Shown one piece after another: positions 20,811-50,124 of a stretch of 53,147 nt of DNA; the first letter of the stretch is position 1, and each line of letters opens with the position of its first letter. The translations under genes and the position numbers were made by a program. The notes beneath the pieces were generated by a model. The model did not search any database. It worked only from the letters and a program-made list of their open reading frames with translations, and was not told the DNA's origin. This stretch comes from an uncultured Clostridia bacterium. GTDB taxonomy: Bacteria; Bacillota; Clostridia; Christensenellales; Pumilibacteraceae. The stretch is from NCBI GenBank assembly GCA_947175335.1, contig CAMWMF010000011.1, positions 1-53,147 of the forward strand, written 5' to 3'.

Positions 20811-20813
20811 ATT

Positions 20814-25388: not shown

Positions 25389-25394
25389 TATAAT
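25389..25394 (+). promoter_or_regulatory. Isolated -10 (TATAAT) before murD
   Basis: TATAAT ends 7 nt before the murD ATG. The hexamer 17 nt upstream (TTCTAT) is a weak -35, so this is a candidate leaderless promoter only. Confidence 0.4.
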
Positions 25395-25401
25395 ACCGTG
25401 T

Positions 25402-28891: not shown

Positions 28892-29783
28892 AAATGCGTT
28901 CAAAAATTTAATAGCGCACTTCGGCGTAGTGTGGGCGGTGCTACTGTATCTTATAGTTTGTTCGGCAATCATAGTGGGTTTGAGCTTGCCGTTTATATTG
29001 CCGATAGCGCGCGCGTTTAAAGACGCGGGTGTGTTCGATGGAATAAGCAATGCGTTTACCGTGCTTATGGGCGACGGCGGCTGGAACGGATTTTGGGACG
29101 GCTTGTTCGACGTGTACAACAAAATAATAGGCGTATTCAACAGCAACAGTAGGGTAGTGTCGCTTTTAAGGATGTTTGTCATATTCGTATTGCTACTTGC
29201 CTTCCGTTTCTTTTTCGGGTTGTACGAGATACCGCTCGCTACCGTTATGGACGGGCGCATGTCATGCAACGCCGGTTACAGCTTTATAGGTAAATTCATA
29301 TCCACGCTGGGCGTGTCGGTGCGGTTCTCGCTGGCAAAGATGCCGATAATGATAGCAATAGACGCAATAACTTTTGCGATAATATACGGCTTGGCGTCAT
29401 TGATAGGGCTTAGCGTGGCGTTGCCTTTCGTAATAATACTGGTAATAATAGTCATGCGTGCATTCCGCAGCTCGCTCACTTCCAGCTGGGCGCCGTGCGT
29501 TGCCGGCGGCATGGGCGTGATTAAAGGCTTTGCCCGCTCGTGCGAAATTTGCTTTAAGCGCTTCGGTTCGATATACTCGACCTATGTAATAATGTGGTTG
29601 CTCGTCGTGGCGTGCGGACTGTTCGTAATCATATTCACGCTCGGCGTGGGAATTATCATCGCTTTCCCGTTCGCCATGTGCATACTCGGCTATATAGGCA
29701 TAACCGTGTATTACAACAAAACGGGCAAGCGGTATTATATAGACGGCACGGTGTTCACGCCGCCTATGGAAAACGTTTTGTAA
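28881..29783 (+). CDS. Multi-TM membrane protein, unknown family
   Basis: 300 aa with about six TM helices. N-terminal amphipathic segment (MSFKNAFKNLIAHFG), TM near 15-45, a soluble loop of about 50 residues, TM near 95-118, a short loop, two or three helices at 150-200, and a final pair near 240-280. Strong ribosome site AAGGAGG 6 nt before the ATG, which lies inside the preceding gene (11-base overlap). The tail (YYIDGTVFTPPMENVL) is short. Layout resembles the protein at 7191-8144. Function unknown; last gene of the dcw transcript. Confidence 0.75.
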   Translation: MSFKNAFKNLIAHFGVVWAVLLYLIVCSAIIVGLSLPFILPIARAFKDAGVFDGISNAFTVLMGDGGWNGFWDGLFDVYNKIIGVFNSNSRVVSLLRMFVIFVLLLAFRFFFGLYEIPLATVMDGRMSCNAGYSFIGKFISTLGVSVRFSLAKMPIMIAIDAITFAIIYGLASLIGLSVALPFVIILVIIVMRAFRSSLTSSWAPCVAGGMGVIKGFARSCEICFKRFGSIYSTYVIMWLLVVACGLFVIIFTLGVGIIIAFPFAMCILGYIGITVYYNKTGKRYYIDGTVFTPPMENVL

Positions 29784-31013: not shown

Positions 31014-31054
31014 AATTTCTCCTATATAATAAGGTTAAGCAAATTAAGCGAATA

Positions 31055-32134
31055 TTAAGCGTTGGCTTTTTTGAATTTGTCCATAAATTCTATAAGCGCG
31101 TCAACGCCTTCTTCGGGCATTGCGTTGTAAATGGACGCGCGCATACCGCCGACAAGTCGGTGGCCTTTAAGCGAAACCAGTCCGGCAGCCGAAGCTTCGG
31201 CAACAAACTTGTCGTCCAGCTCCTTGGACGGCGATACAAACGGCACGTTCATAATAGAACGGTACTGTTTTTGCACGGGATTGGAGTAAAAGCCCGAATT
31301 GTCTATATAATCGTACAGCTTAGCTGCTTTGCGCTCGTTTATCTTTTGGATTGCGGGAATGCCGCCCAGCTCTTTCAGGTATTTAAGCACTTCGTAAATG
31401 ACGTATGTGGAAAAGCAGGGCGGAGTGTTGTACAGGCTTTTGCTTTTTACCTGATTGTCGTAGCGCAGCATGACGGGGCAGGTGGGCGCGGCGCGCTCGG
31501 TCAGCTCGTGCTTGACTATGACGACGGTAACGCCTGCGGGTCCCATGTTCTTTTGTGCGCCCGCATAGATGAGCGCAAAGTCGGACACGTTTATTTGCCG
31601 ACCGAGAATAACAGACGACATATCGGCTACCAGCGGAATGGAGCCGACGTCGGGTGTGCCGTCGTAACAGGTGCCGAATATTGTGTTGTTATAGCAAATA
31701 TGCACGTAGTCGGCGTCCTTGCGGAACATATCGGGCGCGAGACGGGGGATATAGGTATAGTTTTTATCCTCCGAGCTTGCAGCAACATGCGCGTCCAAGT
31801 GTACGCAACCTTCCTTGTAGGCGTTTTTGGCAAAGTTGCCCGTCAGCACGTAATCGGCTTTACGGTTTACCGTGCCTATGTTGAGGGGCACTGCCGAAAA
31901 CTGGTTGGTTGCGCCGCCTTGAACAAATAAAATATCGTAGTCGGCGGGAATGTTCATCAGTTCCCTAAGTAATGCCTCGACGTCGTTATTTATCTTGTCG
32001 TACGGTTTGGAGCGGTGGCTCATTTCCATTACGGACATACCTGTGCCGTTATAGTCGGTAAGCCCGCTTTGCACGCGCTTCAACACTTCGAGGGGCAGCA
32101 TGCCCGGCCCCGCGGAAAAGTTATATACTCTCAT
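31055..32134 (-). CDS. serC: Phosphoserine aminotransferase
   Basis: 359 aa, PLP enzyme. Second step of serine synthesis, also used in pyridoxal phosphate formation. N-terminal YNFSAGPGMLPLEVL, MEMSHRSKPYDKI, VQGGATNQFSAVPLN near 70, PLP Lys in IYAGAQKNMGPAGVT near 195, and C-terminal GHRLVGGMRASIYNA. Start at 32134 set by GGAGGTG 5 nt upstream; the open frame to 32305 covers the promoter and is not used. No phosphoserine phosphatase (serB) is in the window. Confidence 0.96.
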   Translation of the reverse strand: MRVYNFSAGPGMLPLEVLKRVQSGLTDYNGTGMSVMEMSHRSKPYDKINNDVEALLRELMNIPADYDILFVQGGATNQFSAVPLNIGTVNRKADYVLTGNFAKNAYKEGCVHLDAHVAASSEDKNYTYIPRLAPDMFRKDADYVHICYNNTIFGTCYDGTPDVGSIPLVADMSSVILGRQINVSDFALIYAGAQKNMGPAGVTVVIVKHELTERAAPTCPVMLRYDNQVKSKSLYNTPPCFSTYVIYEVLKYLKELGGIPAIQKINERKAAKLYDYIDNSGFYSNPVQKQYRSIMNVPFVSPSKELDDKFVAEASAAGLVSLKGHRLVGGMRASIYNAMPEEGVDALIEFMDKFKKANA

Positions 32135-32162
32135 AATACACCTCCGAATAGCGTATGTGTAA

Positions 32163-32191
32163 ATTGTAGCATACTTACATATATAAATCAA
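32163..32191 (-). promoter_or_regulatory. serC-serA promoter
   Basis: Minus strand TTGATT, 17-nt spacer, TACAAT, 28 nt upstream of serC. Confidence 0.8.
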
Positions 32192-32334
32192 ATATTTATC
32201 GTGATATTGTAAAATTGCATTGAAAAACAGGAAAAATCGAAAAAATTGCCGTTTTTTGCCTTTATAAATGTTGTTCAATATGAATAAACTATGAATATAG
32301 CTCAAAAATTTGCATATTTTTTGAGTTGTTTATA

Positions 32335-32363
32335 TTGACATTACCACCGAAATGTACTATACT
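32335..32363 (+). promoter_or_regulatory. Promoter of the giant-gene operon
   Basis: TTGACA, 17-nt spacer, TATACT, giving a leader of about 77 nt that contains CGAATA/TATTCG (32381-32399) as a small hairpin. Confidence 0.85.
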
Positions 32364-32446
32364 TAATAAATGAATAATGTCGAATAGTATACATATTCGG
32401 CGTTATAGCCGCGTTTTCGGGGCAATACGGTCATAAGTAGGGTCTT

Positions 32447-35400
32447 ATGAAATTGACAAAACAATCTAATAAAATCAAATCACGTATAGTATCGTTTACT
32501 ATTGCGATAGCGCTTATTCTTTGTGCGGTACTGTCGTTGGGATATATCTTGCCCGACCGCATAGTACGCGCCGAGGATAATCCGTCGGAGCCCGCAGCAA
32601 AGGTTACGGACGGTATTAGGTTTGTGCAGGTCGCAGCAGGCTACGACTTTGCTATCGGTCTTACATATGACCGTAAGCTTTACGGTTGGAGTACAAAAGC
32701 CGAGCGCAACAGCAATCCGCAAACGCTGGGCGATTACTACGGATACGACCCGGAGGAAATAAACGTAACCTTCCGCCAGGGCCCCGGTTCTCAAAACTCG
32801 TTCACATGGGGCAATACCGGTACTGAACCAAACTATCATTCGACGCGCACTGACGACCAAATCAAGAGCATAGCGGCCACCGGTACTACCGCTGCGTTTG
32901 TAACCGAAAAAGGTTATTTATATACTTGGGGTGCGGATATTTACGACGTAGCGCACAACGATGGTTCTACTTCAAACCACTTGTTACTGCGTCAAGTCGG
33001 CGAAAGCTATCCCTGGAATACCCCTTACATTATTAACTATCATTATTACGGCGCAGCGGCTTCAAATGCGACCGGTGTCAATAAGTTACCCCTTGAACAA
33101 TTAATTCCCAGCATAGACGGCGGATCAACGTCGTTGGCGGCAGGCGAATATAACTATATATTCATGTTCGAGAGGAACTATCCGGCTACCGGCACAAGCG
33201 GATGGGGTAGCTCCGGCAATTATTACCACACTTATGTTTGGGGTTCGATGCTGTATAATGCCGCGAACACGGTTGATAATTCGGAATTTACTTACACAAG
33301 TCCGTTGGAATTAGGCGGTGGCGCAAATGATCGTAAAGTTTTCAATACGTTTGTCAGCAATTCGAATAAATCAATGTCCGTTGTTGCCGGCGGTTACACG
33401 GTGGGTATCAACAACGCTACGCGTGTAATTTCGGGACAAACGACATTTAGTTCAGGCACGTCTCTGCAACTGCACGGTAAAAACTTTATTACTACGCAAC
33501 CGGTAACGGCAGACGGCGACGCTTATAACGTTGTCAATACCGCCAATTTGATTTCGCCGACTACCGAAGGCAATACGACTTTCAACTCTACTGCCGGTTC
33601 GACTCCGGGCCGTGCAACCGCAGATATAAAGTATAATAACGTTGTATATAAAAATGCAATAGCCGGCGGCAACAGTGGTGGTGTCAATGATGGTTCTCTT
33701 GTCGGGCGAAATACCGAACGGTACTATGCTCGCCAAGCGGGTACGCTTACGTATAGCATATCATCCAGCAACGAAGCGGGTTATCTTATAAATTCCAAAG
33801 CTTCGGATAATTTGATCAGCAAATACGGCGATAACCAAGACGCCCTTAAACCGACGCGTTACGCCGTTGCGCTCGGCAACGATATAGGCTACGGTATAGC
33901 GGACAACAAGCTGTACGGATGGGGCGACAACGCCTACGGCCAGATTACGCCGGGAACCAACGGCGCGAATATGGGAGCTCCTACCGCCATACTCGCAGAC
34001 AAAAACTTCATGTCGGTTGCCGCAGGTAAGCAAAAATCGGCTACTACTGGCAGCGGAAATGTCAGAGCGTTTTTTGCAAATACTCCTACGTTGAGCGGCA
34101 CTTCATTCGAGGAAAATGTAAAAAATGAAGATAAATATATAACCGGCGCACTTACTACGACCGGTACCATTTACGCTTGGAGCAAGGGTATAGCCGCAAA
34201 AGAGCTGACGTACGTCGGCGACCCCGACAACCCTGCCGCCAAAAAGGAAAATTTCACCGCCGTATATTCGGGCTACGGCGAAATGTTGTATGCCATAACC
34301 GCGAGCGGCAAGCTTGTCCGCATTACCGTAAACTCTGCGCGTGACGGATTCGAACAATACGTATACGACGAGTTTTACTCGCGTAACAGCCAAAACGCAC
34401 TCCAAAAAGTAGAAAAATGGACGGTCGACAAAACCAATAAGATTGTGTTTACCGTGCCCACGTCTACACAAGTTGATCCCGATTTGGGACATGCCACCTT
34501 CTACGTTTGGTCGGCTGCTACTTCCGTTCCCGCGGTTGCCGAAGGGGAGGATCCGCTTCCGTCCACCGTTCTCGTCAACGGCGGCACGCAAGCGGCGTAC
34601 AAGCCTCTTGTCTCGGACAACAAAATAGGCGATGCTTACAGAATTATCGGTCTCACGTCTGCGGACGCAAACATCCAATATCTTAAAGCGGCAGAGAAGT
34701 ATCAAAGCGATTTCGTCAACCTCGACGCCAACAATTACGCGCCCAAGTTCTACTTTGACTGCGACAAATCCAACGGCGGCGATCTTATGAGCGCTACGCA
34801 GCAGCAAAATATGTTTACCTTCCGCGAGGTAAGCGACGCCAACGGCGTAGGTATTTATATCGAGCCCAGGCAGTCTTCCAGGGGCAAGAACATAAGGGTA
34901 GATTTTTATATTGCACGTTACAACAACTACGCCAAGTTCAATACGTCTTACAATCAAACGACTCAGCAATACACTGTTAACGACTCAGCAATTTACTATG
35001 ACTACCGGCTGTGCAGCATTACGTTCTCCATTAACGATACTCCTACGGTTGTGACGTATACCCCTTACAACAGCGATAACGGCAACAAGAGCAATATTCC
35101 GCTTTTGGATCCCAACAACCCGTACAACAGAATTTATTCGGTAGCGGTGCAGGATGTTTCTACCGGCGTTGACGAGCTTATCAAGTTCCTTACGGGCGAT
35201 AATGATGCCGTCAATACCAATTTCAAAGCGGCAATAATGACCGAAATGAAAAAGGACATCGGCTTCCCCAATAGCGAAAACGTAGCAAAGGGCGACCTTA
35301 CTTATTATTTAAATAATGAGGACTTGAAAAAGTACAATTACGTCAGAGGCGAAAACGGAGAAAATACGATAGGCGCGAACGACGGTATTTATCAGCACTT

Positions 35401-38275
35401 GTTTGAAGACCGCGACAACGAAAGGATTCGTCTTACACTTCGCGAAGGCGAAACAACAATTATATCTTCCGATATCGCAGGAGCAGTAATAGGCGACCTC
35501 AAAACTATAACAGTACGAATCGAATATGTGCCGAGCAATTACGGAATTACGGGCACAACCGCTACTTTGACAGGCCCGCAGCTACTCAAACTTATTGCAT
35601 CCGAATTCAACAACAAATACGGCTTGTATAACTTCCGATACACGACAGTCGAAGGCAAGAATTATTTGTCTTTCGATTATGAAGTAGTAACGTTTACTGC
35701 CGAAAAGGCAACGGGCGTAATAGGCTATACCGGCAACGCAACAGATCCTGCAAGCGTTACCAATTACAATACGGTACAAAATCAGCCGCATGCTACTGCC
35801 AGCTTTATGGCGTACACGCTCAATAAATATAAGTATAGCGACGCCAACGGTTACGAGGAGATGGATCAGGACAGAAATACTCCGTATAAAAATAATTCCA
35901 ACTTAATACATGTATTTTCGCAGCCTTCGCTTCGACTTAAAAGCGATTTGGTGTCCGGCACCGTTACCGACAAAAACGGTCAGGCAAGCGGAACCAAAAA
36001 TACGTATACCGAAACTCACAGCAATACGCAAACCGATCCCTTCTACGTAGGCGATACCAAAACAATAAGGTTGTCCGACTACGTTAATAATATCGGTGAC
36101 ATTATCAGCTTTTCTTACAACGATAAAACCGATCCTACCAGCTTGTCCGGATTTTCCAATCAGTTCAAGGATTTTACCGGTCACAATATGCGTGTCGTTA
36201 CTTTAAGCGGCAACAACATTTTGGTTCATCCCACAACGGCTGCGCCCATCAACTTTACGGTAGAGGTTCAGCGCTTTGTCGATAGCGAAAAATCCAGAAT
36301 TTTCAAAAACGGCAATGACGTTGACGAAAAGCTTTACCTTACGTTTAACTTCAATAACATTGTCGGATTCAATATGACTGCGCGTACGCAAGCTCCGACC
36401 GAGTACACAATAACCAACTCTACCACCATAGATTTGTTTGGAGAGGGCAGCGGCGTAGAAAATGCCGGTGTCTCGTATATAGACTTGGTCGGTGCGCTCG
36501 GCGGATCGTTGGCCACTAACTCTAACGAATCGGCTGCCCGTGCATACACCGCACTCAAATCCAACGTTCAAATATACGGTTTGGAAAGCTCGGAAAAAGG
36601 CAAGCCCGATAATGAAAGGTTGTTTAACGTATCCGATCCTCAAAGCGGTACGGAAAAAACAAAATTCATAATATCACCCAAGCGTTCGGGTACCGGCACC
36701 ATAGTATTTTCGGCAAACGTTTACGACAAGAGCTTGACGTTTAAGCTTACGATAAACGTTTCTGCGATTACCGAGTTGGATGACAGCAAAAAGATTTCCT
36801 TAATAGACTCCGAGTATATTCCCGTGTCAGAGCTGGACGAGGTGCTTCGCAGCGCCAACAGCTTTAACTCCGAGGTAACGAGCGGTGTGTACAGGATTTT
36901 GTGGAAAGATCCCGCAGGCGCAGTATACTTCGAGGATGAGGACGGCAATGCAGGTAACCCGCCGTTTGTCGATAGCGTAATATTCGAGCGCGGCGGCACA
37001 TCTAATGCTACTATACGTATCAAGGCTAACAACAGCTCCACTTCGCAAAGCAAGACGTACAAAATGTACGTGCGTTATACCAATGCGCCCGAGAGCGTAG
37101 AAAGATACGAGGATATTCCCGCGGATAAATCGTCTATTTATGTCGTAATTCCCATCTCGTCGGGTAAGGTCAAGCTTCAATCGGCCGAGGGCGGCGATTT
37201 GGTTGCCACCATAGACTGCCATGATCCTAAGCAAGGCTCTTCCGAGTGGTTGAGCACGGAAGGCTCGCGTTTGGATACAAAAGTTACTATCGACTTGTCG
37301 TATTTGCTTGACCGTGATAAGACGGTCGGCGCCGATAAATGCACCATATTCCTTTTGTCGGCCGACAGCGACGCTACAAAGTACTTCCAGTATGATAAGA
37401 GCGGCGACGAAAGAGCGATAGAAATAACGCCTAAGCTTAATACGGACAAAAACTATGAGCTTAGCGTGTCGGTGTACAACGACAGCGACAAAACAACTAA
37501 GGTGCTTACCTTTGAAATAGCTATCAAGGGCATTCTTACCGTGTTACCCGTTATGACCAACGACGACGGCATTATAGGCTACGGCAATATTTGGTTGTAC
37601 TCGGCGGCTATCGTGTTCGGCGTACTGTTCATAATCTTTATGATACGCTTTATCGTGTATATGCGCCGCAGGGCCAAGCAACGCGCTATCATCAAGCGCA
37701 ACCAAGAGCTTATCCGTTTGCGCGACCGTATGCACGGCAAGGCCAATGCCGCTTCGCGCGAGCAGCTTGTTAAGTCCAAGCTGAAAATGGAAGATCCCAA
37801 GTACGCAAAAATGTTCAACGATATGCGCAGGGATAAGGAAGAAGAAAGCGGCGTAGCGCTGGTCAATTCCGATCTTGCCGCTACCGCGGACAAAAAGAGC
37901 AAAAAGAAAAAGAAGAAGGGCGGCAAAAAATCCGTTGCGGAGTTGAAAGCCGAGCTGGCCGCAAAGAAGGCGGCGTTCGCCGCCGCGCAGGCGGGCAATG
38001 CGCAGCCTGTTAATCCGTTTACTGCCGAGGTCCCTCTTGACGGTGGCTTTGTAGCGCCCGACGCAGGCTTTGGCGGTGACGGCGGTTTTGTCTCTCCCGA
38101 CGCAGGCTTCGGCGGCGACGGTGGATATGCCGGTGACGGCGGATATGCTGCCGACGGCGGATTTGCCGGCGGAGGCGGTGGCTTCGGTGACGGCGGCGAC
38201 TTTGGCGGTGCCCAGAGCATAGACGGAAGCGAAATAATCTTCGACGCGTCCGATATGGGCGACGGAAATATGTAA
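32447..38275 (+). CDS. Giant exported protein with RCC1-like repeats, one TM and cytoplasmic tail
   Basis: 1942 aa. Signal peptide (hydrophobic core FTIAIALILCAVLSLGYIL, residues about 17-36). Residues about 55-700 contain RCC1-type blades: FVQVAAGYDFAIGLTYDRKL, GYLYTWGAD near 155, and the best match LYGWGDNAYGQITP near 490, with several weaker ones. Residues 700-1700 are beta-rich, with stretches that could be cadherin- or Ig-like (YVGDTKTIRLSDYV near 1200). TM at about 1713-1739 (WLYSAAIVFGVLFIIFMIRF), then a basic cytoplasmic tail of about 200 residues: helix RNQELIRLRDRMHGK, KKSKKKKKKGGKK near 1815, and Gly/Asp/Phe/Tyr repeats at 1865-1923. Ribosome site is weak (TAGGGT). First gene of the operon; function unknown. 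Type I membrane topology is inferred. Confidence 0.9.
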   Translation: MKLTKQSNKIKSRIVSFTIAIALILCAVLSLGYILPDRIVRAEDNPSEPAAKVTDGIRFVQVAAGYDFAIGLTYDRKLYGWSTKAERNSNPQTLGDYYGYDPEEINVTFRQGPGSQNSFTWGNTGTEPNYHSTRTDDQIKSIAATGTTAAFVTEKGYLYTWGADIYDVAHNDGSTSNHLLLRQVGESYPWNTPYIINYHYYGAAASNATGVNKLPLEQLIPSIDGGSTSLAAGEYNYIFMFERNYPATGTSGWGSSGNYYHTYVWGSMLYNAANTVDNSEFTYTSPLELGGGANDRKVFNTFVSNSNKSMSVVAGGYTVGINNATRVISGQTTFSSGTSLQLHGKNFITTQPVTADGDAYNVVNTANLISPTTEGNTTFNSTAGSTPGRATADIKYNNVVYKNAIAGGNSGGVNDGSLVGRNTERYYARQAGTLTYSISSSNEAGYLINSKASDNLISKYGDNQDALKPTRYAVALGNDIGYGIADNKLYGWGDNAYGQITPGTNGANMGAPTAILADKNFMSVAAGKQKSATTGSGNVRAFFANTPTLSGTSFEENVKNEDKYITGALTTTGTIYAWSKGIAAKELTYVGDPDNPAAKKENFTAVYSGYGEMLYAITASGKLVRITVNSARDGFEQYVYDEFYSRNSQNALQKVEKWTVDKTNKIVFTVPTSTQVDPDLGHATFYVWSAATSVPAVAEGEDPLPSTVLVNGGTQAAYKPLVSDNKIGDAYRIIGLTSADANIQYLKAAEKYQSDFVNLDANNYAPKFYFDCDKSNGGDLMSATQQQNMFTFREVSDANGVGIYIEPRQSSRGKNIRVDFYIARYNNYAKFNTSYNQTTQQYTVNDSAIYYDYRLCSITFSINDTPTVVTYTPYNSDNGNKSNIPLLDPNNPYNRIYSVAVQDVSTGVDELIKFLTGDNDAVNTNFKAAIMTEMKKDIGFPNSENVAKGDLTYYLNNEDLKKYNYVRGENGENTIGANDGIYQHLFEDRDNERIRLTLREGETTIISSDIAGAVIGDLKTITVRIEYVPSNYGITGTTATLTGPQLLKLIASEFNNKYGLYNFRYTTVEGKNYLSFDYEVVTFTAEKATGVIGYTGNATDPASVTNYNTVQNQPHATASFMAYTLNKYKYSDANGYEEMDQDRNTPYKNNSNLIHVFSQPSLRLKSDLVSGTVTDKNGQASGTKNTYTETHSNTQTDPFYVGDTKTIRLSDYVNNIGDIISFSYNDKTDPTSLSGFSNQFKDFTGHNMRVVTLSGNNILVHPTTAAPINFTVEVQRFVDSEKSRIFKNGNDVDEKLYLTFNFNNIVGFNMTARTQAPTEYTITNSTTIDLFGEGSGVENAGVSYIDLVGALGGSLATNSNESAARAYTALKSNVQIYGLESSEKGKPDNERLFNVSDPQSGTEKTKFIISPKRSGTGTIVFSANVYDKSLTFKLTINVSAITELDDSKKISLIDSEYIPVSELDEVLRSANSFNSEVTSGVYRILWKDPAGAVYFEDEDGNAGNPPFVDSVIFERGGTSNATIRIKANNSSTSQSKTYKMYVRYTNAPESVERYEDIPADKSSIYVVIPISSGKVKLQSAEGGDLVATIDCHDPKQGSSEWLSTEGSRLDTKVTIDLSYLLDRDKTVGADKCTIFLLSADSDATKYFQYDKSGDERAIEITPKLNTDKNYELSVSVYNDSDKTTKVLTFEIAIKGILTVLPVMTNDDGIIGYGNIWLYSAAIVFGVLFIIFMIRFIVYMRRRAKQRAIIKRNQELIRLRDRMHGKANAASREQLVKSKLKMEDPKYAKMFNDMRRDKEEESGVALVNSDLAATADKKSKKKKKKGGKKSVAELKAELAAKKAAFAAAQAGNAQPVNPFTAEVPLDGGFVAPDAGFGGDGGFVSPDAGFGGDGGYAGDGGYAADGGFAGGGGGFGDGGDFGGAQSIDGSEIIFDASDMGDGNM
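38041..38215 (+). repeat. Gly/Asp/aromatic tail repeats in giant protein 1
   Basis: Tandem units such as GGFVAPDAGFGGDGG, GGFVSPDAGFGGDGG, then GGYAGDGGYAADGGFAGG, encoded by imperfect DNA repeats of about 45 bases and shorter. Confidence 0.85.
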
Positions 38276-38293
38276 GGGGAGGATAGAGTAATC

Positions 38294-41200
38294 ATGCAAA
38301 GAACATCATTAAAACGCAACATATTACTGTTTTCTATCCTTATCGTAGCGATTGTAATGCTGTTTGCGGCAGTTCTTTTGCCGCGCGGCGCCGCTTCGGC
38401 GTACACTTTGGACAGCGTCGGCAACAATTCCGGTAGCGACAGCAACAAGGGTAACGGTTTTATCGATTTAACTTTCGACGTAAACGGTAGAGAGCAACAA
38501 TCGGATGAACGCGATACTGTAGCTTCAAGCGGCAAAAACCCGATTGTGGAAAACAACAGTAAGCAGTTCAGAAAGCGTTACATAAACGCTAACGCAATAG
38601 CACAGAGAATATTCACTAACTATACGGCAGGAGACGAATGCGTATTTGTAAGCACCTCTCTTATAAACAGTAATACGCAGTATTCCGTTACGTTTAACAG
38701 TCAAATTTCGGAAGCAAATGGCACATATGGCGTATTAGTAGTAGAGGCTACTTCGTTTATTGCCAAGGACGTTACGGGTAACTTCTCCATTGACGTTCAG
38801 ATGATTGACAACGACACTACGTATACACGCACGGCTTACTTTAACGTAACAATCAACGACACGTTGGTTCCGAGCGGTAGCGGCGACAGTCATAAGTCTT
38901 TGATTGTCGGCAATGCAGTCAACGCAAGTGGTGTGGAAACTCCCGAGTCTTACGACGCGGCCAAAAAAGAGCATCAGTCTATAATGACTGTAAATAACTT
39001 CTCTTCGTTGACTGTTGACCTAAGCACCCATTTGTTGGGTCGTGCACTTTATGCCGAAAACACCGAAACGGGTGGTACGGATACCGCGCTTATGGACGGT
39101 ACCGATAGAAAGTGGACTGTTAAGTCGGTCACAAACTTTGTTATCGAAGACATATCGTTCCGCAGCCTTCCCACGTTAAAGCTTAAAAATCCAATATCCA
39201 GCTCCACGACAAGTGATTTCGTTCGTGTTGCGCCGCGCATTACCGGTGATGTTGAGGTGTATTCTTCCACAATCAGCGAGTACAATCAGGTAAATATCGG
39301 CAAATCATTTTGGAATGAAACGCACATCATGGAGGTGAAAATTTGCAGGGTAGGCGCATCCTCTTCCGATCAAAGGGATTTTATACTCATTCCCTTTAAG
39401 TTCGCGGCTGCCAACCCGCAAAAGAAAGACGTAAACTCCAAGGCATTGCGCCTTAACGTTACGTCCGAGGCAGTTTGCGATTTGTCGCAAAACGACACGT
39501 CATTCGATCATTGCTCTATAATTGTCCGTCCTACCGACCTTATAGAGTATAGCTCCGCTATTCCTTCGGACAGCCCCAAGGCGCCCAAGTTCTCCCACAG
39601 CGGAACAAAGCTTGACGGCACCGACGAGCTTAAAGTAGACGGACTTACTATCGAGCGCGTCAGAAAAGACGGCGATAGCTACGTACTTGACGAAACTACC
39701 GAGGACGGTGAGCAAAAGGTAATTGTCGATATGTACCGCATTACCGGCAAAAAGCTGGACAAGAACTCTACCGACGGTACATATACCATCACGTTCAATA
39801 TTTACTATTACGAAAGCGAAGACTCTACCCCTAAGACTTATCCCGCAACCATTATTGTCAGCACTTACGGCGGATATCAGGTTACGTTCGATACAATCAA
39901 GGGTAAAGCTCCCGTATCGTACAATGCACTTAATTCAAGCAAGTTTGCAAAAATGCGCGAGCTCGGTTATTTGCTTACCGACGCCACGTCGAATGACGAA
40001 AGATTCCTTACCGTTACGTTTGACGATAACGTGTTAAAGCTCGATCCCAACGTCGATAACATCAAGGGTCAGGAAAAAGCTACGGTTAGGCTTACGTTTA
40101 CCAACCAAAGCCGTCAAACTATTACGTTTGATTCCGACCCGTTCACTATCGACGTCAACGCGGGCGATTTGTTCCGTCGTTTCGAAACGTGGGAAGCCGC
40201 GCTTATTATTGCGGCTGCCTGCCTCGGCGGAATAATAATCATACTGTTTATCGTATGGGTGTTCATACATGCACTGTCCAAGCGCAAGCAGGACGAGCTG
40301 GCTATGCAGGCGCCTGTGTCGTCGTACATTGTCAAGCTCAACTCCACGATAGCTGCCAACCAGGCGCAACAGCGCGCGGCGCAAAACCAAGCGTTGTCGC
40401 AGGCGAGCACGCAAATGCTTTTGGGTGCCGGTCCCGCAACAGGTGCGGCGCCGCTGCCCGATACGTTGCAGCTTGCTACCGGTCAACCGTCTTCGCCGGC
40501 AACGTCTTCGCCGTCTTCGCCGCTTATGAGCGAGCCGCAAGCAACCGTTCCGCCCACCGACAGTGATGAAAACTTGTACGAGCTTATCGCCAAGTATATT
40601 TCGGACGACGAGCTGTTGGAGCGCATATTCACCGAAAAGTACGAGCCGAAGGGCATGGTTCGCCGTACGTTCTTCAAGTCCAAGGATTTGCAGGCGCGCG
40701 AGCTGGATAAGGAAAAGAAGCGCATTATCGAACGTTACAAATCGCCTATGCCTATGGACGAGGCGATAATGAGCGAAACGGAAATCAAAAATTCCGGCGC
40801 TACTTCTACGCCCGCCGCGACGTCCGAGCCTACGGCTACCGAACCCGAAGCGGTGGAAATGTTTGCGCTCGACTTCGATCCCGACGCGCCTTTGTACGTC
40901 GAGGAGGAGAAGAAGTCCGACGAGTTCACCGAGGAGAAGATCGATATCGACACCTCGCCGGAGGAGAGCAGACTGCGCAATATCGAGCGTCAAAACGATA
41001 TCCTCAACAAAGAGCTTGCCGAGCTTAAAGTGCGTTTGGATAAGGTTCAAACCGAAGTCGACCGTGCCAAGACTATGGAAGAGGAATTGCGCGAAAAAAT
41101 CGCCAAGGCCGAAAGCGACGACGCGCAGTACGCCAAGGATATCGAGGAGCTCGAATTCAAGCTCGCTTCGGCTAAGAATAAAGATAAGCCTATAATCACT

Positions 41201-43369: not shown

Positions 43370-43462
43370 GGCAAAGTGACGGACTTACAACTAAAACGAT
43401 TCGGTTCCGCTATGCGCGGTATGAATAAGTGTAAAAACAAATAACAAATGCGAGGAACATTT

Positions 43463-46400
43463 ATGGACAACCAAGACAAGACGACTTTTTCGTTGGACGA
43501 TGAGGAGATCGTTGAGGAAGAAGTTATCGATCGTGACGAAGAGTACGACGATGGCTACGAAGACGAGGACTACGGCGACGAAGGGTACGACGACGAGTAC
43601 GACGAGGATTACGGCGACGAAGACTACGGCGACGAGGAGTATGACGACGGCTACAACGACGATTATTACGACGACCGTTTAAACAAGGTCCTTGACGAGC
43701 TTGCCGAATTAAAGAGGGGAATGGTACCGGCTACTCAACAGCAGCAGCCTCAGCCCATTATGCCGCCTCAATACATTTACCAACCTACCGCTCCGCCTGC
43801 CGGCAGCGAGGTTGTAATGTACAACGAAATTTCGCGTTTGCGTGACGAGCTTGCTCGCAATCAGAACAGCTTGGAAATGCAAAAGGAGCTTACGCGTATC
43901 AAGGAAGATATGCAGCGCGACCAAAAGTTTGCGGAAGCCCAGTACAACGCGGAAATCCAACGGTTGCAGAGTAAAATCGACGACCTACTAAAAAACGGGT
44001 CAAGCCCTCAAAGTGAACTTCCGGCAGGTCAGGAACCGGAGCGCATTGAGGGCGGAAAATCTTTGGATGTAGATAAGCTGCTTTCGATAAACGAAGCTAT
44101 TTTGCGTGCCATGCGCGACACCGACGCGCGTATGCAGAACGAAATAGGCCAGTTGAAAAAGCAGTTGGACGAAATGCCGTCCGTTAAGGAACTTAACGGC
44201 GCGGTTTCGTCTATGAAAAAAGCGGCAAATAGCATGGACACCGGCAATCTTACCAAGCTTTCGGGCGAGATTGCGGCGTTAAAGGCTGTGCTGGAAGGCA
44301 CGCCTATGCCTACGGCTGCCGCCGCCGCACCCGCTGCGGCGACTACTCCCGTTGTTTCGGAAGTAAGTGCCGCCGAGCTTTTGCGTCAGCTTTACGAAAT
44401 CAAAACGGTTATCGGCAATGCTTCGCCGGCTGCCGTTAAACGCGCACAAACAATTTCCGAGCTTGTAAACGACTTCAAAAAAGTTACATACGATGTTCAC
44501 TCGCAAACCGCATCATATAAAGACAAGCTCAATGCAGTGTACGCTTACGTAAAGCGCCTTACGGACAGCAATGAGCCGGACGCTATCGACTTAGTACAGG
44601 CAACAAACACGCTTATAGACGAGCTGGGCGACCAGCCGCTCAACAAGCAGTCGTTCACTGCCGTGGCGGAATTCTGCGCCGAGCGCGGCATGACCACTAT
44701 AACTTCGGCAATGCGCGACAGTGCCGACCGCTTCTTCAATCTTGTAGGTAAAATAGAGGATGCTCCTGTTGAATCGTACGGCGACTTCTTGCCAGATCTT
44801 GTGGAGGAAATCAACACACTTCAAGGCAACAAGTACGAGGCGGAAAACGCCGCTACGGTAGGCGAAATTACAACGGAACTGGTCAACGAAAACAGTGACA
44901 AAGCTGCTGTTAAGGAAATGGTGGAGCGGCTTGTCGAAATCACCGTTGCCGACGTTTTGGATTTGCCCGAGCTTGACTTGCCCAAAGCGTACAAGCCCGC
45001 GCACGTTCAAAACGACGAAACGCTGTTTACCAAGCTTGCCGATCTTAAATCGGCGGTTATGGACAGACCGACGCCGACAATTATACCTACTTCGGAAGAC
45101 GGCGAGCTGTCGGTGGACGAAGCGGCGTTGCAGCAAATACTGTACGCCGTAGACGACCTTAAAAACAAGCTGGAAAACGCAACCGGCAACAACGACGTAG
45201 CCGGCGCGTTAGAAGAGCTTCGCAATAACTATTTGGATATAACAAATCGCCTTGTCGATATGTCCGAAAAATTGCAGGAACCGCCTGTTCAAGCGGAAGC
45301 TACGGAAGGCGCGGCAATGTCGGACGAGGAACGTCAGATAATGCTCGACGACCTCGGTTATATCCGTGCAAAGTTGGACGATTACGAAACGTTCTTCAAC
45401 AACCTGTCCGACTTGCGTACTGAGCTTAACCAAACGCAAACGGGTGGCGGTGAGGACTTAACCGCACCGGTTACAGAGCAGCTCACAACGCTGATGACCG
45501 ATATTACCGCGCAGTTCGACAAACTGTACGAGGACGTCACCAACGTAATTATCGAATCTGAATCGAATATTATCGGCAAGCTTGGCGACGGTAATGACGC
45601 TAATGCTACGCTGGACGCCATAGAGGCTGCCAAAGCGGACATCCTTGCCGAAACTCAGTCCATCAAGGATTCGCTTGTCGGCGTGTCGGACGCTAATGCT
45701 GCGCTCGACGCTATCGATGCCGCCAAGTCCGACATTCTTATCGACACGCAAGCCATTAGGGATTCGCTCGTAAGTGTATCGGACGCTATACTTATGTCGC
45801 CCACTGCTGAGGCTATCGAGCAGCTTCGTGCCGACGTAAACGCTTATATCGATTCGGCCAGTGTCAACATGGAATCGGCAACGTCCGACAGACAGCGTTT
45901 GCTGGACGATATTGCGTTCCTTCGCGAGCAAGCCGAGCTTGCCATTGCGGAAGGCGACCAAATACCCGACGGTGCTGAAGCAGTTCAGGATACCGAAAAG
46001 CTTATCGACTACTTGGACGAAATCGCGGCACGTGTATCGCTTATCAACACGGTAGCCGACGACGCAGCCGCAACCAAGGAATCTGTTACTACGATAGGCG
46101 ACAACGTAGCCGCTTTGTCGGATAACGTCGCCACCGTGTCGGACGCGCTCAATGCCGTTACCGACAGCGTTGCAGCGGCAAGCGACAGCATTGCGGCTAT
46201 CAACGATAACTTTGTTGCAGTCAACGACAACTTTGCGGTAATCAACGACAATGTTAACGCTATGAGTGAAAACGTTGTTGCGGCACGCGACGCGGCTAAT
46301 TCCGCACTGGATGCGCTCACGCCGATAACCGAGCAGTTAAATAGCATACTCGAAAGGCTGGAAACGCCTACGACCGAGGCGGAACAAACCGTCGTCGAGA

Positions 46401-49400
46401 ACAACGATTATGCCGCGGACGAGCTTGCGCTTATACGCGATAACCTTAACGCAATAATCGACACGCTCACATTAATGCCGCAGTCGGACGACGTGGTGGT
46501 CGCACGCGACAACACGCTCGCCATACTCGACGCACTGGCTACAATGCCGCAAGCGGACGACGTTGCGCTTATACGCGAAAACGTAAGCACATTGCTTGAA
46601 TCGGTAAATGCGCTTACCGAGAACGTTACTGCTCTTGGTGAAAATTCCAACGACAATCAGCCCGTTATCGACGAGATAACCGCGCTCCGCGAAGCGTTTG
46701 ACGTTACTGCCGAGGATATCAAGCTCGTGCTTGAAAAAATCGACCTTAGCGAACAGTACGCCGCTACGGATAAGCAAGAGATTATCGACGCGGTAAACGC
46801 GATTAAAGAAGAAATTCACATCAACACGCTGGACGAAAACATGTCGGCGTCCGGCATAGACGGGGAGACCCGCGAAGCGCTTTTGGGCGAAATTGCCGAA
46901 ATCCGCGAACGCTTGGGCAATATCGAAAATGCGACTCAAGCGGCTAACGACGTAAACGTTGCGGCAATCGACCAGATTTCCGCGCAGCTTGCCGATTTGC
47001 AGGCCGCGTTGGAAGGACTTGCAGCGGGAACTGACGAGCAGGCCGACCAAGACCAACTCGATTCGGATAACATGCAAGCGCTCATTGCCGAGCTTTCGTC
47101 TATCAAGGAAAAACTCGATGCGTCGTCCGAATACGACACCGTCGAAGAAATTCTGTCCTTGCGCGAGGACATCAAGGCCGCACGTATAGTCGATCAGGAC
47201 GAGGTTTCGGGCGAGCTGGAATCTATCAAGAACGAGCTTGCCGCTATATCTTCGGGCAACATACTTGACGAAATCCGCGCTTTGCGCGAGGATATTGCAA
47301 ACCTTCCCGTAGGCGTCGACGGCGGTTCGGAAGCTACCGACGGCGAAATCAATCTTGTGCTTAACGAGATTGTGTCGTTGCGCGACGAAGTATTTGCGTT
47401 TAAGGACGAAGTACTCAACGCGACCGGTGCTACTGCCGAACCTCAAACGGAGCCGACAGAGCAAGTAGTCCAAAGCTCCGAGGATATGCTTAGTGTCCTT
47501 GACGAGCTTTCCGCACTTCGTGCCGACCAAACCGCGCTCAGCGAAAATATCGACGAGCTTAAAGACCTTGTCAGCCGTAGAACGACCGTAGTAAGCGGCG
47601 ACGAGGAAGGCGCTACGACAACGGCCAACGTTGACGAGCTTAACATAGTGCTCGACGAGATAATCAATCTTAAAGGCGATATAGACAGGATAGAGGAGAG
47701 CTTGGGCGGCGACAGACTTAATGCAATCGCCGAGCAAGTGGAAGATATCCGCGCAGTACTTGACGAGCTTAGAAGCAACGCGGGAGCGAGCGACGCACAA
47801 ACGACAACGGAGACCTATTCCGAAAGCGGTGCGCCCGTTACTGCCGACGTCGACCTTACGCCTGTACTCGAACAGTTGGATGCCGTAAATGCGGCTTTGG
47901 AAGAAATTAAGCTTGTTCAGGAAGCTACCGTCGCCGAGGAAGGCGGCGAAGCTACCGGCTCGCTTGCCGAACGCTTTGACGCGCTTGAAGCGGAAATGGC
48001 GGATATCAAGTCCGCGCTTGCCGATATGGCGCCTATCGATTACGCGGCGGAAATGGCGGAAATGCGCGCCCAAATCGAATCGCTCCGTGCCGAGAACGAG
48101 CAGTTAAAGGCTGACGGCACAGACATGTTCGCCGTACAAATTGACGAGCTTAAAGACTTTATACGCGATTTGACTGAAACCGCGCACGCGTCTGCACCCG
48201 TTGACGCGGCAGCGGCAGACGGCAGCGAATTGTACACAATGCTTATCGACGAAATCCGCGGACTTAAAGAACAAGTTGCGGCTGTCCAAGCGGCGCCCGT
48301 GCAGGCGACTGCGGGATTGGACGAGCAGGCATTGCAGGATATACGCGACATGCTTGCCGCACAGACCGAACAAAACGGACTTGCCGGCGAGCTGGGCGAG
48401 ATACGAGACGAAATAGCGCAGCTTCGTTCGCTCACCACAGTAGCGGCGGAAAGCGGCGGCAACGTAGAGGTTCAGTCGCTCAGGGACGAGCTGGAAGAAA
48501 TCAAGTCTATGCTCGCATCGCCCGACAGTCTTATGGGCGTTGCCGAGGACGTAACGGCTATCAAGGCGGACGTTCAGACCTTGAAGGAAGAGCCCGACCT
48601 CGGCGTTATGAGCGAGATTTTGGCACTGCGCGACGAGTTCCAAGCATTGCGTGAGCAGATTGAGGACGTCAAGCGCATTGCCGGCGAAACGGAAAGCGAA
48701 TCGGACGACACGCTTATGGCGGAAATCCAGTCGCTCCGCGATCAGCTGTTTGCTATCAGCATGGCCAACGTAAACGATCCCGCTTCGGGCGAATCCAATT
48801 ACGAAAGCTACAACAATATAATTCTCGACGAGATTGCTTCGCTCCGCGACCAGGTAGCGAGCGCGGGCTCGGCACGGGATATCGAAATCATATCCGACGA
48901 GTTTGCCAAGCTTAAAGCGGCGATTGACAAGCGCGAAGCTATGGTCGAGGCGCTTGCGGACAGAGTAGCAACGCTCGGCAATGATGCAACCAACAATAAG
49001 ATTTTGGAAGAGCTTGCCGTGCTGCGCACCGATATGGCAAATCAGCGCGACGCCGACCTTACCACGCTCAACTTTATGTCGGAAATGGCGCACCTTTTGG
49101 AACGCCAAAATCAGTACCTCACGCAAAACGCGGGTACCAAGATAACCGACGAGATTGAAAGCCTCAAAGCCGAAATCGCGTCCAGCGATGCCGTAGCGGA
49201 AGAGGTTGCCAAACTGCGCGAGGTTATGACGCAAACGGGCAATGCGGCCGACAACGACACCATTCTCGCCGAGCTTGCCGACCTTAGGGAAGAGCTCAGC
49301 AAGGAAAAACCCAGCCAAGAAAACGCGCTTATACTCGACGCTATATCGCGGCTCCGCGACGAAATAACGGTGATTGCCGAGCGCGAAAGAGTGCGCGACC

Positions 49401-50068
49401 TCAATTCCGACGCCGATCTTTCCGATTCGCTTTCCGACTTGAAGGAACAGCTTAACGAGATAGCCGGAATTATGGAGCCCAATCAGCATATTCAGCCCGC
49501 TCAACCGGCGCAGCCTGTTCAGTCTGTTCAGCCCGAAAAGAAACCGGCCGCAAGCATGGCAACGGGCAAAAAGCGCGGCAGAAAGCCGGGGCAAAAGAAT
49601 TCCGCTAAGACGGGTGGAACGAGCACCGCAAGTACGGGTACCGGCAAAAAGCGCGGACGTAAGCCCGCAGCGCAAAAACAAGCGCAGCCGGAAGTAGAGG
49701 AAGTAGTTATCAATACTCCAGCACCCGAAAAGGACGAGTTTGAAGCGCTTATAGACCGTCAAGCGGGCTTGCTCGGCGGCGATAGCGATATGTCGCTCAA
49801 TCCCACCGTAACGGCCGACACTATGGACGTAGCCGATAGGCTCGCCAAGCAGGTCGCCAACAAGCTGATAATGGAACAGCTTGTCGAGCAGTTGGGCGAC
49901 GGTGGCGTAAGCGAGGACAGGGTGGACGAAATTTTGCGCGACATACTGCCGCACGAATTCAACACCATAGCTGAAACCGAAGCTTCCGACAAGGTTCGCA
50001 GACTCGCCAACCAGCTCGTGCTCAACAAGCTCCGCGCAAGGCTTAACGGCAACAAGGACGAAGACTAA
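43463..50068 (+). CDS. Giant cytoplasmic helical-repeat protein with acidic N-terminus and AT-hook-like motifs
   Basis: About 2201 aa, no signal peptide or TM. Residues 12-72 are almost only Asp, Glu, Tyr and Gly (DEDYGDEGYDDEYDEDYGDE). Then Pro/Gln linker (80-105), helical start (YNEISRLRDELARNQNSLEM), and a very long helical part with a recurring motif of the type hhDEIxxLRxxh (about 30 copies, densest 1140-2000). Two 31-aa tandem repeats at 712-773, heptad repeats at 880-950, and units of about 23 residues (LNAIIDTLTLMPQSDDV type) near 990-1040. Two GKKRGRKP motifs at 2032-2072 resemble AT-hooks. A helical C-terminal domain (about 2090-2201) ends LVLNKLRARLNGNKDED. Start 43463 is set by GAGGA 6 nt upstream; ATG 43448 in frame is too early. 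Function unknown; a DNA-linked scaffold is inferred. Confidence 0.9.
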   Translation: MDNQDKTTFSLDDEEIVEEEVIDRDEEYDDGYEDEDYGDEGYDDEYDEDYGDEDYGDEEYDDGYNDDYYDDRLNKVLDELAELKRGMVPATQQQQPQPIMPPQYIYQPTAPPAGSEVVMYNEISRLRDELARNQNSLEMQKELTRIKEDMQRDQKFAEAQYNAEIQRLQSKIDDLLKNGSSPQSELPAGQEPERIEGGKSLDVDKLLSINEAILRAMRDTDARMQNEIGQLKKQLDEMPSVKELNGAVSSMKKAANSMDTGNLTKLSGEIAALKAVLEGTPMPTAAAAAPAAATTPVVSEVSAAELLRQLYEIKTVIGNASPAAVKRAQTISELVNDFKKVTYDVHSQTASYKDKLNAVYAYVKRLTDSNEPDAIDLVQATNTLIDELGDQPLNKQSFTAVAEFCAERGMTTITSAMRDSADRFFNLVGKIEDAPVESYGDFLPDLVEEINTLQGNKYEAENAATVGEITTELVNENSDKAAVKEMVERLVEITVADVLDLPELDLPKAYKPAHVQNDETLFTKLADLKSAVMDRPTPTIIPTSEDGELSVDEAALQQILYAVDDLKNKLENATGNNDVAGALEELRNNYLDITNRLVDMSEKLQEPPVQAEATEGAAMSDEERQIMLDDLGYIRAKLDDYETFFNNLSDLRTELNQTQTGGGEDLTAPVTEQLTTLMTDITAQFDKLYEDVTNVIIESESNIIGKLGDGNDANATLDAIEAAKADILAETQSIKDSLVGVSDANAALDAIDAAKSDILIDTQAIRDSLVSVSDAILMSPTAEAIEQLRADVNAYIDSASVNMESATSDRQRLLDDIAFLREQAELAIAEGDQIPDGAEAVQDTEKLIDYLDEIAARVSLINTVADDAAATKESVTTIGDNVAALSDNVATVSDALNAVTDSVAAASDSIAAINDNFVAVNDNFAVINDNVNAMSENVVAARDAANSALDALTPITEQLNSILERLETPTTEAEQTVVENNDYAADELALIRDNLNAIIDTLTLMPQSDDVVVARDNTLAILDALATMPQADDVALIRENVSTLLESVNALTENVTALGENSNDNQPVIDEITALREAFDVTAEDIKLVLEKIDLSEQYAATDKQEIIDAVNAIKEEIHINTLDENMSASGIDGETREALLGEIAEIRERLGNIENATQAANDVNVAAIDQISAQLADLQAALEGLAAGTDEQADQDQLDSDNMQALIAELSSIKEKLDASSEYDTVEEILSLREDIKAARIVDQDEVSGELESIKNELAAISSGNILDEIRALREDIANLPVGVDGGSEATDGEINLVLNEIVSLRDEVFAFKDEVLNATGATAEPQTEPTEQVVQSSEDMLSVLDELSALRADQTALSENIDELKDLVSRRTTVVSGDEEGATTTANVDELNIVLDEIINLKGDIDRIEESLGGDRLNAIAEQVEDIRAVLDELRSNAGASDAQTTTETYSESGAPVTADVDLTPVLEQLDAVNAALEEIKLVQEATVAEEGGEATGSLAERFDALEAEMADIKSALADMAPIDYAAEMAEMRAQIESLRAENEQLKADGTDMFAVQIDELKDFIRDLTETAHASAPVDAAAADGSELYTMLIDEIRGLKEQVAAVQAAPVQATAGLDEQALQDIRDMLAAQTEQNGLAGELGEIRDEIAQLRSLTTVAAESGGNVEVQSLRDELEEIKSMLASPDSLMGVAEDVTAIKADVQTLKEEPDLGVMSEILALRDEFQALREQIEDVKRIAGETESESDDTLMAEIQSLRDQLFAISMANVNDPASGESNYESYNNIILDEIASLRDQVASAGSARDIEIISDEFAKLKAAIDKREAMVEALADRVATLGNDATNNKILEELAVLRTDMANQRDADLTTLNFMSEMAHLLERQNQYLTQNAGTKITDEIESLKAEIASSDAVAEEVAKLREVMTQTGNAADNDTILAELADLREELSKEKPSQENALILDAISRLRDEITVIAERERVRDLNSDADLSDSLSDLKEQLNEIAGIMEPNQHIQPAQPAQPVQSVQPEKKPAASMATGKKRGRKPGQKNSAKTGGTSTASTGTGKKRGRKPAAQKQAQPEVEEVVINTPAPEKDEFEALIDRQAGLLGGDSDMSLNPTVTADTMDVADRLAKQVANKLIMEQLVEQLGDGGVSEDRVDEILRDILPHEFNTIAETEASDKVRRLANQLVLNKLRARLNGNKDED
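45596..45781 (+). repeat. Two tandem 93-bp (31-aa) repeats
   Basis: Copies start at 45596 and 45689; both encode DANA(T/A)LDAI(E/D)AAK(A/S)DIL and then SVS- or GVS-ending segments with few differences. A third partial copy begins at 45782. Confidence 0.85.
46100..46312 (+). repeat. Run of nine or more heptad repeats
   Basis: Consecutive 7-residue units such as VAALSDN, VATVSDA, LNAVTDS, VAAASDS, IAAINDN, FVAVNDN, FAVINDN, VNAMSEN. Hydrophobic residues recur at two fixed positions and Asn/Asp/Ser at the last three. Confidence 0.85.
49558..49680 (+). other. Two AT-hook-like motifs in giant protein 3
   Basis: GKKRGRKPG and GKKRGRKPA separated by a Ser/Thr/Gly-rich linker of about 20 residues. 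KRGRKP fits the AT-hook core, which binds the minor groove of AT-rich DNA. Confidence 0.6.
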
Positions 50069-50089
50069 TAATTAAAAGTAATCAAAAAG

Positions 50090-50114
50090 ACCGCGGTTAT
50101 ATCGCGGTTTTTTT
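50090..50114 (+). terminator. Intrinsic terminator of the giant-gene operon
   Basis: Stem ACCGCG/CGCGGT with a 7-nt loop followed by seven T, 22 bases after the stop. Confidence 0.85.
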
Positions 50115-50124
50115 GTTGTTTTGA

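Follow-up and report, generated by a model that had tools for sequence, protein, structure and literature searches.

The window analyzed here is a stretch of 53,147 nucleotides of contig C11, from the 1.96-Mb assembly of an uncultured bacterium whose genus is the one including Anaerocaecibacter muris (Pumilibacteraceae, Clostridia according to NCBI). Its central feature is a run of three co-directional open reading frames spanning 32447–50068, with 1942, 1691, and 2206 codons, which encode giant proteins (P1, P2, and P3; 5839 residues in total) that we consider candidates for a scaffold of the division septum. The called frames are separated by gaps of 18 bp (P1/P2) and 78 bp (P2/P3). Gene 2 is preceded by GGGGAGG, and for gene 3 the start at 43463 is preferred because GAGGA sits 6 nt before that ATG. 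The operon comprises:

32335–32363, + strand: sigma-A type promoter, TTGACA-17-TATACT, matching 11 of 12 consensus positions
32447–38275, + strand: gene 1 (P1), 1942 amino acids, protein of RCC1 type, predicted to be exported, with a single clear transmembrane helix near the C-terminus and a conserved cytoplasmic tail
38294–43369, + strand: gene 2 (P2), 1691 amino acids, predicted ectodomain, central transmembrane helix, cytoplasmic coiled coil, and Arg-Pro-Gly tail
43448–50068, + strand: gene 3 (P3), 2206 amino acids as called, 2201 from the probable start at 43463
50083–50115, + strand: intrinsic terminator, a 15-pair stem-loop followed by a T run

An earlier note on this DNA had described one promoter and one terminator around genes of 1942, 1691, and about 2201 codons, a layout that our analysis reproduces. 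The promoter was the best among 26 promoter-like sites (shuffled sequence gave a mean of 16.2), and no sigma-A pattern was found within 420 bp upstream of gene 2 or gene 3. The terminator stem-loop had the highest pair count of 27 terminator-like sites, a number of sites not above the shuffle mean (30). In 15 of 16 genomes a sigma-A type site also lay 0–302 bp ahead of the called start of P1 (shuffles 1.4 of 16, maximum 5); such a site preceded P3 in 8 of 10 loci that carry P3 without P1 and P2 (shuffles 0.9, maximum 4) and was found at three of six loci with a compact P2 and P3. This conserved promoter ahead of P1 or P3 favors vegetative expression. RCC1 aside, P1–P3 gave no match over cut-off to any Pfam or NCBIfam model, and therefore no enzyme domain was found in them, in keeping with the earlier note, which had seen no enzyme motif. 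Apart from the RCC1 repeats, the profile searches (Pfam, NCBIfam, PADLOC, and solved structures) gave scores of coiled-coil or helical type.

P1 can be divided into the following parts, the hydrophobic segments being assigned by hydropathy:

32486–32542, + strand: N-terminal hydrophobic segment (predicted signal peptide), residues 14–32
32579–34033, + strand: RCC1 repeat region, residues 45–529, matched by PF13540, PF25390 (below cut-off), and PF00415
37601–37657, + strand: predicted transmembrane helix, residues 1719–1737
37664–37996, + strand: conserved basic cytoplasmic juxtamembrane segment, residues 1740–1850 (alignment A3)

The RCC1 repeats exceeded the curated cut-offs of PF13540 (E 2.9e-14, 52.8 bits against 22) and PF00415 (E 6.7e-5, 23.8 bits against 21.7), and the RLD model PF25390 scored 53.1 bits, under its cut-off of 150. 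These matches and the hydropathy profile agree with the signal peptide, RCC1-like repeats, and C-terminal transmembrane helix first noticed by eye. Beyond the RCC1 region P1 carries a long extracytoplasmic stretch of ∼1200 residues. A borderline hydrophobic segment (residues 1686–1704) lies just ahead of the strong transmembrane helix, the equivalent of which was found in all 16 orthologues; across these, the alignment of helix and tail (A3) contains 15 invariant columns. In genome G035 an extra 472-residue RCC1-like protein with a lipoprotein-like start is encoded immediately before P1 (L044:4070-5488).

P2 combines an N-terminal hydrophobic segment, a central transmembrane helix, a coiled coil, and a Gly-Ala-Arg-Pro-type tail, as had been read from its letters and as hydropathy, alignment, and tail composition bear out:

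38411–40189, + strand: ectodomain, residues 40–632, predicted tandem beta-sandwich (Ig/cadherin-like) domains
40199–40255, + strand: predicted transmembrane helix, residues 636–654, by hydropathy
40826–42343, + strand: conserved cytoplasmic coil, from an [LF]-[DG]-F-[DN]-P motif through an SGSG-[IV]-[IL]-S motif
43121–43366, + strand: basic Arg-Pro-Gly-Ala (GARP-like) tail, residues 1610–1691, 24 Lys plus Arg vs. one Asp or Glu

The AlphaFold model of the ectodomain is a chain of beta domains (mean predicted local distance difference test, pLDDT, 84.5), which Foldseek matched to S-layer and cadherin-like modules, with SbsB at the top (E 2.2e-12, template modeling score 0.17). Two hydrophobic transmembrane regions are predicted in giant P2 proteins, and the N-terminal one only in the compact P2 proteins of G022, G034, G030, and G031. 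The coil was defined from alignment A2 (17 sequences, compact forms among them) together with a profile search. In a Pfam scan at E up to 10, SBP_bac_3 (E 0.03) was the sole match to P2. Two order-level P2 matches outside the family (E 2.1e-6 and 8.8e-5) were discarded since they fall in the low-complexity tail. Open frames of ∼3700–3960 codons in four genomes (G002:C41, G017:C1, G001:C4, and G011:C81) weakly resemble the region flanking the P2 transmembrane helix, and further giant proteins may therefore exist in the genus.

P3 is predicted to be soluble: no transmembrane segment was found by hydropathy in 23 of 24 orthologues, and the remaining one (G019) has a borderline segment. Its landmarks are:

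43448–43687, + strand: acidic N-terminus, net charge −34 over 80 residues
44315–45127, + strand: predicted globular all-helical domain, residues 290–560 (AlphaFold and a 37-row alignment)
48545–48892, + strand: conserved segment used as family probe A1, residues 1700–1815
48734–48835, + strand: core motif LRDQLFAISMANVND...YESYNNIILDE, about residues 1763–1796
49571–49663, + strand: two AT-hook-like motifs, KRGRKP, within a basic linker, genus-restricted
49820–50065, + strand: C-terminal conserved domain, residues 2125–2206, in giant forms and the compact G022

The model of the helical domain has a mean pLDDT of 77.7, with core blocks at 84–94. P3 contains 28 loose helical motifs (shuffle mean 0.59, maximum 4) and 12 copies of the strict motif [DEN]-[EA]-[IL]-x-x-[LI]-[RK]-[DEA] (0.11 in shuffles), the shuffles preserving composition only; a soluble protein with an acidic N-terminus, about 30 helical motifs, and AT-hook-like motifs is what the earlier note had described. 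The A1 alignment (20 rows, omitting G008, G029, and G035, and with G030 having no aligned segment) has two invariant and 22 nearly invariant columns, and a whole-protein search recovered both halves of the core motif in 21 of 24 P3 proteins. We base motif conservation on A1 and this count rather than on alignment A7 (eight invariant columns in 34 rows, nine of 43 candidate rows omitted), because the A7 loci were mostly motif-selected. In place of the core motif, the helical domain is common to the P3 proteins of G029 and G030, and those of G022 and G031 have the core motif and little or none of the helical domain. The A7 profile matched designed coiled coils (E 2.3e-6), and the A5 profile matched the hypothetical protein HP1531 (1zke, E 0.0027). 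A PADLOC match to LmuB (44 bits, E 4.4e-12) was rejected as coil similarity within the coiled coil, and a DUF2408 match in a piece of the G016 P3 (26.7 bits against a cut-off of 25; 8.9 in the window P3) was taken as helical similarity.

The AT-hook-like motifs raise the possibility of an envelope-to-chromosome tether, in which P3 would bind DNA and P1 and P2 would hold it to the membrane. The window P3 has two KRGRKP motifs, and RGRKP occurs in 11 of the 13 P3 proteins examined from the 20 genomes of the genus. An AT-hook protein would be expected to conserve the RGR core across orthologues, and RGRKP was found in none of 11 P3 proteins from other family genera, where the stretch is a Lys-rich linker or missing; P3 is, moreover, mostly strongly acidic (residues 560–2010 hold 100 Lys plus Arg vs. 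314 Asp plus Glu). Because the motif is confined to the genus, the chromosome link is poorly supported, and we regard such a tether as very improbable. The structural complex joining envelope and chromosome put forward in the earlier note thus survives in part: a scaffold spanning envelope, membrane, and cytoplasm fits the topology, and the connection to the chromosome is not supported.

All three proteins were matched in 20 of 20 genus genomes (the window's own and 19 others, some with the genes split over contigs), so the expectation that the genes stay together was borne out within the genus. Among the 61 genomes searched, P1 was found in 25, P2 in 30, and P3 in 32; in 17 other genera of the family, represented by one genome each, the numbers were 5, 8, and 12. 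A profile search over 20 genomes recovered P2 in 10, adding G030 and G031, plus a coil-level match in G170, and gave none in G021, G025, G026, G027, G029, G032, G036, G195, or G278. Searching 297 genomes of the order with the P3 probe gave 20 strong matches (E 3.3e-8 or lower), all within the family. Matches were obtained in 35 genomes altogether, and the 15 weaker ones (E 1.5e-4 to 0.01, most with internal stop codons) were set aside as chance.

Across the family these genes form a graded series. G195 has a P3 of 122 residues in the slot between ftsW and murA; eight loci have a P3 of 837–1134 residues after serC/serA with no P2 between; G034, G030, and locus L131 pair P3 with a compact P2 (636–708 residues); and the giant trio occurs in the window's own genus (g1) and in five further genera. 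In G029 a 354-residue gene with one hydrophobic segment by eye, not recognized as P2, precedes P3. Because P3 occurs alone, with a short membrane-anchored P2, or with a giant P2 and P1, P3 looks like the core of the system and P1 like its last addition, an order read from the series of forms. The occurrence of P3 without P2 and P1, and of P2 and P3 without P1, means that outside the genus the trio is not obligate.

The operon lies within the division and cell wall (dcw) cluster, between ftsW and murA-ftsQ-ftsA-ftsZ. Upstream of it the window carries:

18679–29783, + strand: upstream half of the dcw cluster, with mraZ, mraW, an ftsL-like gene, a PASTA-domain penicillin-binding protein (PBP) of FtsI/SpoVD type, murE, mraY, murD, ftsW, and two membrane proteins
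29859–32305, − strand: serA and serC, divergent from the operon (PF02826/PF00389 and PF00266)

Pfam supports the PBP and FtsW, and the ftsL-like gene is a DivIC match below cut-off; mraZ, mraW, murE, mraY, and murD were named by eye. In many relatives serA and serC occupy the same slot and belong to a family-specific ftsW-murA block. On the other side of P3 the window contig ends after a few variable genes, and this genome has its ftsQ and ftsZ on another contig, C28, that terminates at ftsQ. In relatives the genes 3′ of P3 are murA, ftsQ, ftsA, ftsZ, spoIIGA, and sigE, with the FtsQ-type POTRA domain, FtsA, FtsZ, and SpoIIGA confirmed by Pfam in G033.

We compared the 46 family loci listed from at least 80 stretches matched by core-motif patterns. 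Some of these loci come from a shared assembly, and the counts therefore refer to loci. Among the 46 loci listed, murA lay within the fetched flank 3′ of P3 in 30, two more had other dcw markers after P3 (ftsQ in L120, spoIIGA-sigE in L110), 12 ended within 1.5 kb of P3, and two had room and no marker. As expected of a divisome or septal protein with a fixed place in the cluster, dcw markers therefore follow P3 in 32 of the 34 listed loci with a readable downstream flank. In outgroups ftsW was followed directly by murA in 11 of 14 loci, from 11 other families (L140, L141, and L151 were not readable at this junction). The P3 block is a family-specific insertion.

Two adjoining membrane proteins after ftsW (27887–29783), without a Pfam match, are kept nearby in several relatives. 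Between P3 and the contig end (50227–53020) the window has variable DUF6560-type, zinc-ribbon membrane, and acetyltransferase-like genes; relatives carry a different set between P3 and murA, with a similar acetyltransferase gene there, by eye, in G004 (L090). At loci with P3 only, a membrane protein of ∼165–180 residues often lies between P3 and murA (L122:10880-11386; also L117, L119, L124–L128, L131, and L133), and the L122 protein matches MntP and TerC, both below cut-off.

A septal scaffold is the simplest explanation for an operon that lies within dcw, whose P2 is anchored in the membrane, and whose P3 and P1 have conserved parts in the cytoplasm. We think it somewhat probable, at slightly better than even confidence, that the three genes specify a division-septum scaffold that spans the envelope and is specific to this lineage. 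The earlier note, which overlooked the dcw embedding, had also suggested a general cell-shape or polar scaffold; a position inside dcw indicates septation instead. In the arrangement we propose, P3 would be the core, a long, multivalent cytoplasmic protein whose strongly conserved motif LRDQLFAISMANVND...YESYNNIILDE, present in most of the family, may bind a Z-ring protein (FtsZ, FtsA, or SepF). P2 would tether P3 to the membrane, its basic Arg-Pro-Gly tail docking on the acidic P3 N-terminus, and the giant P2 ectodomain would extend into the wall. P1 would contribute an outer domain of RCC1 type and another conserved tail in the cytoplasm, and the three proteins jointly might connect the division ring in the cytoplasm with the place where septal wall is made. 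The gene anatomy, its conservation, the co-occurrence in the genus, the dcw location, the housekeeping-type promoter at a matching position in relatives, and the charge covariation of the P2 tail and P3 N-terminus come from computation; septal localization, the identity of the partner, direct contact among P1, P2, and P3, and wall binding are our inferences.

The proposed docking can be examined through charge. In 12 giant pairs the P3 N-terminal 80 residues carry a net charge of −34 to −44 and the P2 tail +22 to +29; the corresponding values are −26 and +16 in the G024 pair, and −9 to −17 and −3 to +8 in four compact pairs. The Spearman correlation was −0.65 over the 17 pairs and −0.78 with one row per genus (10), as compared with +0.29 for a control end. 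The P3 of G018 as called begins past the acidic stretch. This covariation supports docking of the P2 tail on the P3 N-terminus.

The likeness of the P2 ectodomain model to the beta-sandwich repeats of S-layer proteins and cadherins (SbsB) would also fit an apparatus for adhesion or of the cell surface that happens to occupy the dcw slot and has no part in division, with the ectodomains of P1 and P2 forming a surface layer or adhesin and P3 serving as its cytoskeleton. RCC1 domains are general interaction platforms, which suits such a role, as does the location of the genes outside dcw in four genomes. A surface function accounts poorly for the fact that P3 alone, even at 122 residues, keeps the slot before murA without P1 or P2, and the most conserved parts of P1 and P3 are cytoplasmic; this explanation therefore seems to us quite unlikely.

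The wall synthases of the dcw cluster are specialized for spore formation in many Clostridia, and for this reason P1–P3 might instead serve the asymmetric septum, as a sporulation-specific scaffold for septation or engulfment rather than for vegetative division. The dcw SEDS and class B PBP genes of spore formers are described as serving sporulation in PMC10693644. The single dcw PBP in the window carries a PASTA domain, relatives have the SpoIIGA and SigE genes 3′ of ftsZ with SigG nearby, and among 29 family genomes SpoIIGA was found in 27 and a Spo0A domain in 28 (27 at full strength); in G027, which is without P3, Spo0A-domain matches are only weak (best E 1.3e-12). The conserved promoter is, however, of sigma-A type, and P3 presence does not follow Spo0A: G024 (90% complete) gave no match to Spo0A and retains P2 and P3 in giant form, and in G025 and G032 (87 and 89% complete) a full Spo0A was found and no P3, their slot being unreadable. 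We consider a sporulation-specific role unlikely, if less so than a surface apparatus.

Mean FtsZ identity to outgroups was 48.5% for the genus (nine genomes), 44.8% for P3-only loci (six), and 54.7–57.9% for other family groups; MurA identity was flat (44.6–46.4%), and FtsA identity was 27.6% for the genus vs. 31.0–33.8%. We did not use FtsZ divergence as support because Pumilibacter-like genomes have the giant trio yet the least divergent FtsZ (57.9%). ZapA was found in none of 25 family genomes searched and in 4 of 41 in the whole order sample, where it is thus mostly absent too, and DivIVA matches in 27 of 41 genomes (12 over cut-off) were not interpretable. By eye, the C-terminal peptide of the genus FtsZ (G000:C28:14452-15528 and relatives) has lost the FPEFL-type motif, ending for example in SWLQKLNNRK.

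A number of observations weigh against the septal scaffold. A dcw neighborhood is not equal to localization, and P2/P3 lie outside dcw in four family genomes (G022, G024, G031, and G035). The conservation counted on the family loci is biased because these were picked by core-motif patterns. In G027 (97% complete) serC adjoins murA and the slot is without P3, and the system is therefore not essential everywhere. With SepF found in 38 of 41 genomes, Z-ring anchoring is not obviously in need of replacement, and the divergence of FtsZ does not follow the presence of P3. Few independent events may underlie the charge covariation. Finally, the core motif is absent from G029, G030, and G035, and in the 122-residue P3 of G195 its second half alone is recognizable, plus an end helix; with no P3 segment universal, the idea of a single common partner is weakened, and the partner of P3 need not be identical throughout the family.

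A bolder form of the septal scaffold, which we put forward as tentative and on balance rather unlikely, is that P3 is the founding member of a new Z-ring protein family. Starting from a core as short as 122 residues, it would have joined the division machinery in one bacterial family, grown beyond 2300 residues, and recruited the P2 anchor and the outer RCC1-type P1 to form an envelope-spanning collar at midcell. If true, this collar would be functionally a giant hybrid of MapZ and EzrA, inserted in a gene cluster that ranks among the most conserved in bacteria.

In our best reading the system would work most like EzrA or MapZ, yet it matches no family tested. EzrA is a Z-ring organizer linked to FtsZ, FtsA, and SepF (PMC8687745, PMC12288466) whose C-terminal QNR motif binds FtsA (PMC12288466). 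EzrA of Bacilli has an N-terminal transmembrane helix and a large helical cytoplasmic part, a layout that compact P2, with its N-terminal hydrophobic region, may share; the pneumococcal protein has 575 residues vs. about 1700 for P2. Giant P2 differs in its large ectodomain ahead of the transmembrane helix, and P2, unlike EzrA, is paired with P3 and usually dcw-encoded. The EzrA profile (PF06160) had no match in P2 in Pfam at E up to 10. MapZ binds FtsZ through its N-terminal part and the wall through its C-terminal part, the reverse of the orientation proposed for P2; no MapZ match to P1–P3 was obtained in Pfam at E up to 10, a library that we take to hold MapZ models. According to PMC8687745, MapZ/LocZ of streptococci connects the wall with Z-ring placement, as the system described here would. 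MldABC of C. difficile and relatives, according to PMC10693644, are three midcell proteins, of which MldA has a peptidoglycan-binding SPOR domain; they likewise form a lineage-specific cluster of three in Clostridia, with the midcell position seen for MldABC. Unlike MldA, P1–P3 gave no SPOR match in Pfam.

Two broader classes share single features with the trio. P1 resembles RCC1-repeat proteins in its N-terminal region, which scores over the RCC1 model cut-offs, and differs from them in being bacterial and membrane-anchored; it also has another ∼1200 residues on the extracytoplasmic side and a conserved tail in the cytoplasm. P3 shows weak coiled-coil similarity to SMC-like proteins (SMC, LmuB), the SMC model TIGR02168 scoring 21.9 bits, far under its cut-off of 567, and no ATPase domain was found. 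In the accessible portions of the literature on Pumilibacteraceae genera, dcw and the divisome, MapZ/EzrA/MldA, and RCC1 or giant proteins, we recognized nothing as this system. The trio would be an accessory septal scaffold of unusual size and layout.

According to PMC12802175, a paper retrieved for Pumilibacteraceae and its genera, limited phenotype is known. A family of gut Clostridia has inserted a putative scaffold system at the ftsW-murA junction, in forms that range from a P3 of 122 residues to the full giant trio, and this series is natural material for asking how divisome scaffolds arise. The named strains Anaerocaecibacter muris, Pumilibacter muris, and P. intestinalis make the idea testable. 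If septal, the system would represent a new solution for coupling the wall to the Z-ring in bacteria without detectable ZapA.

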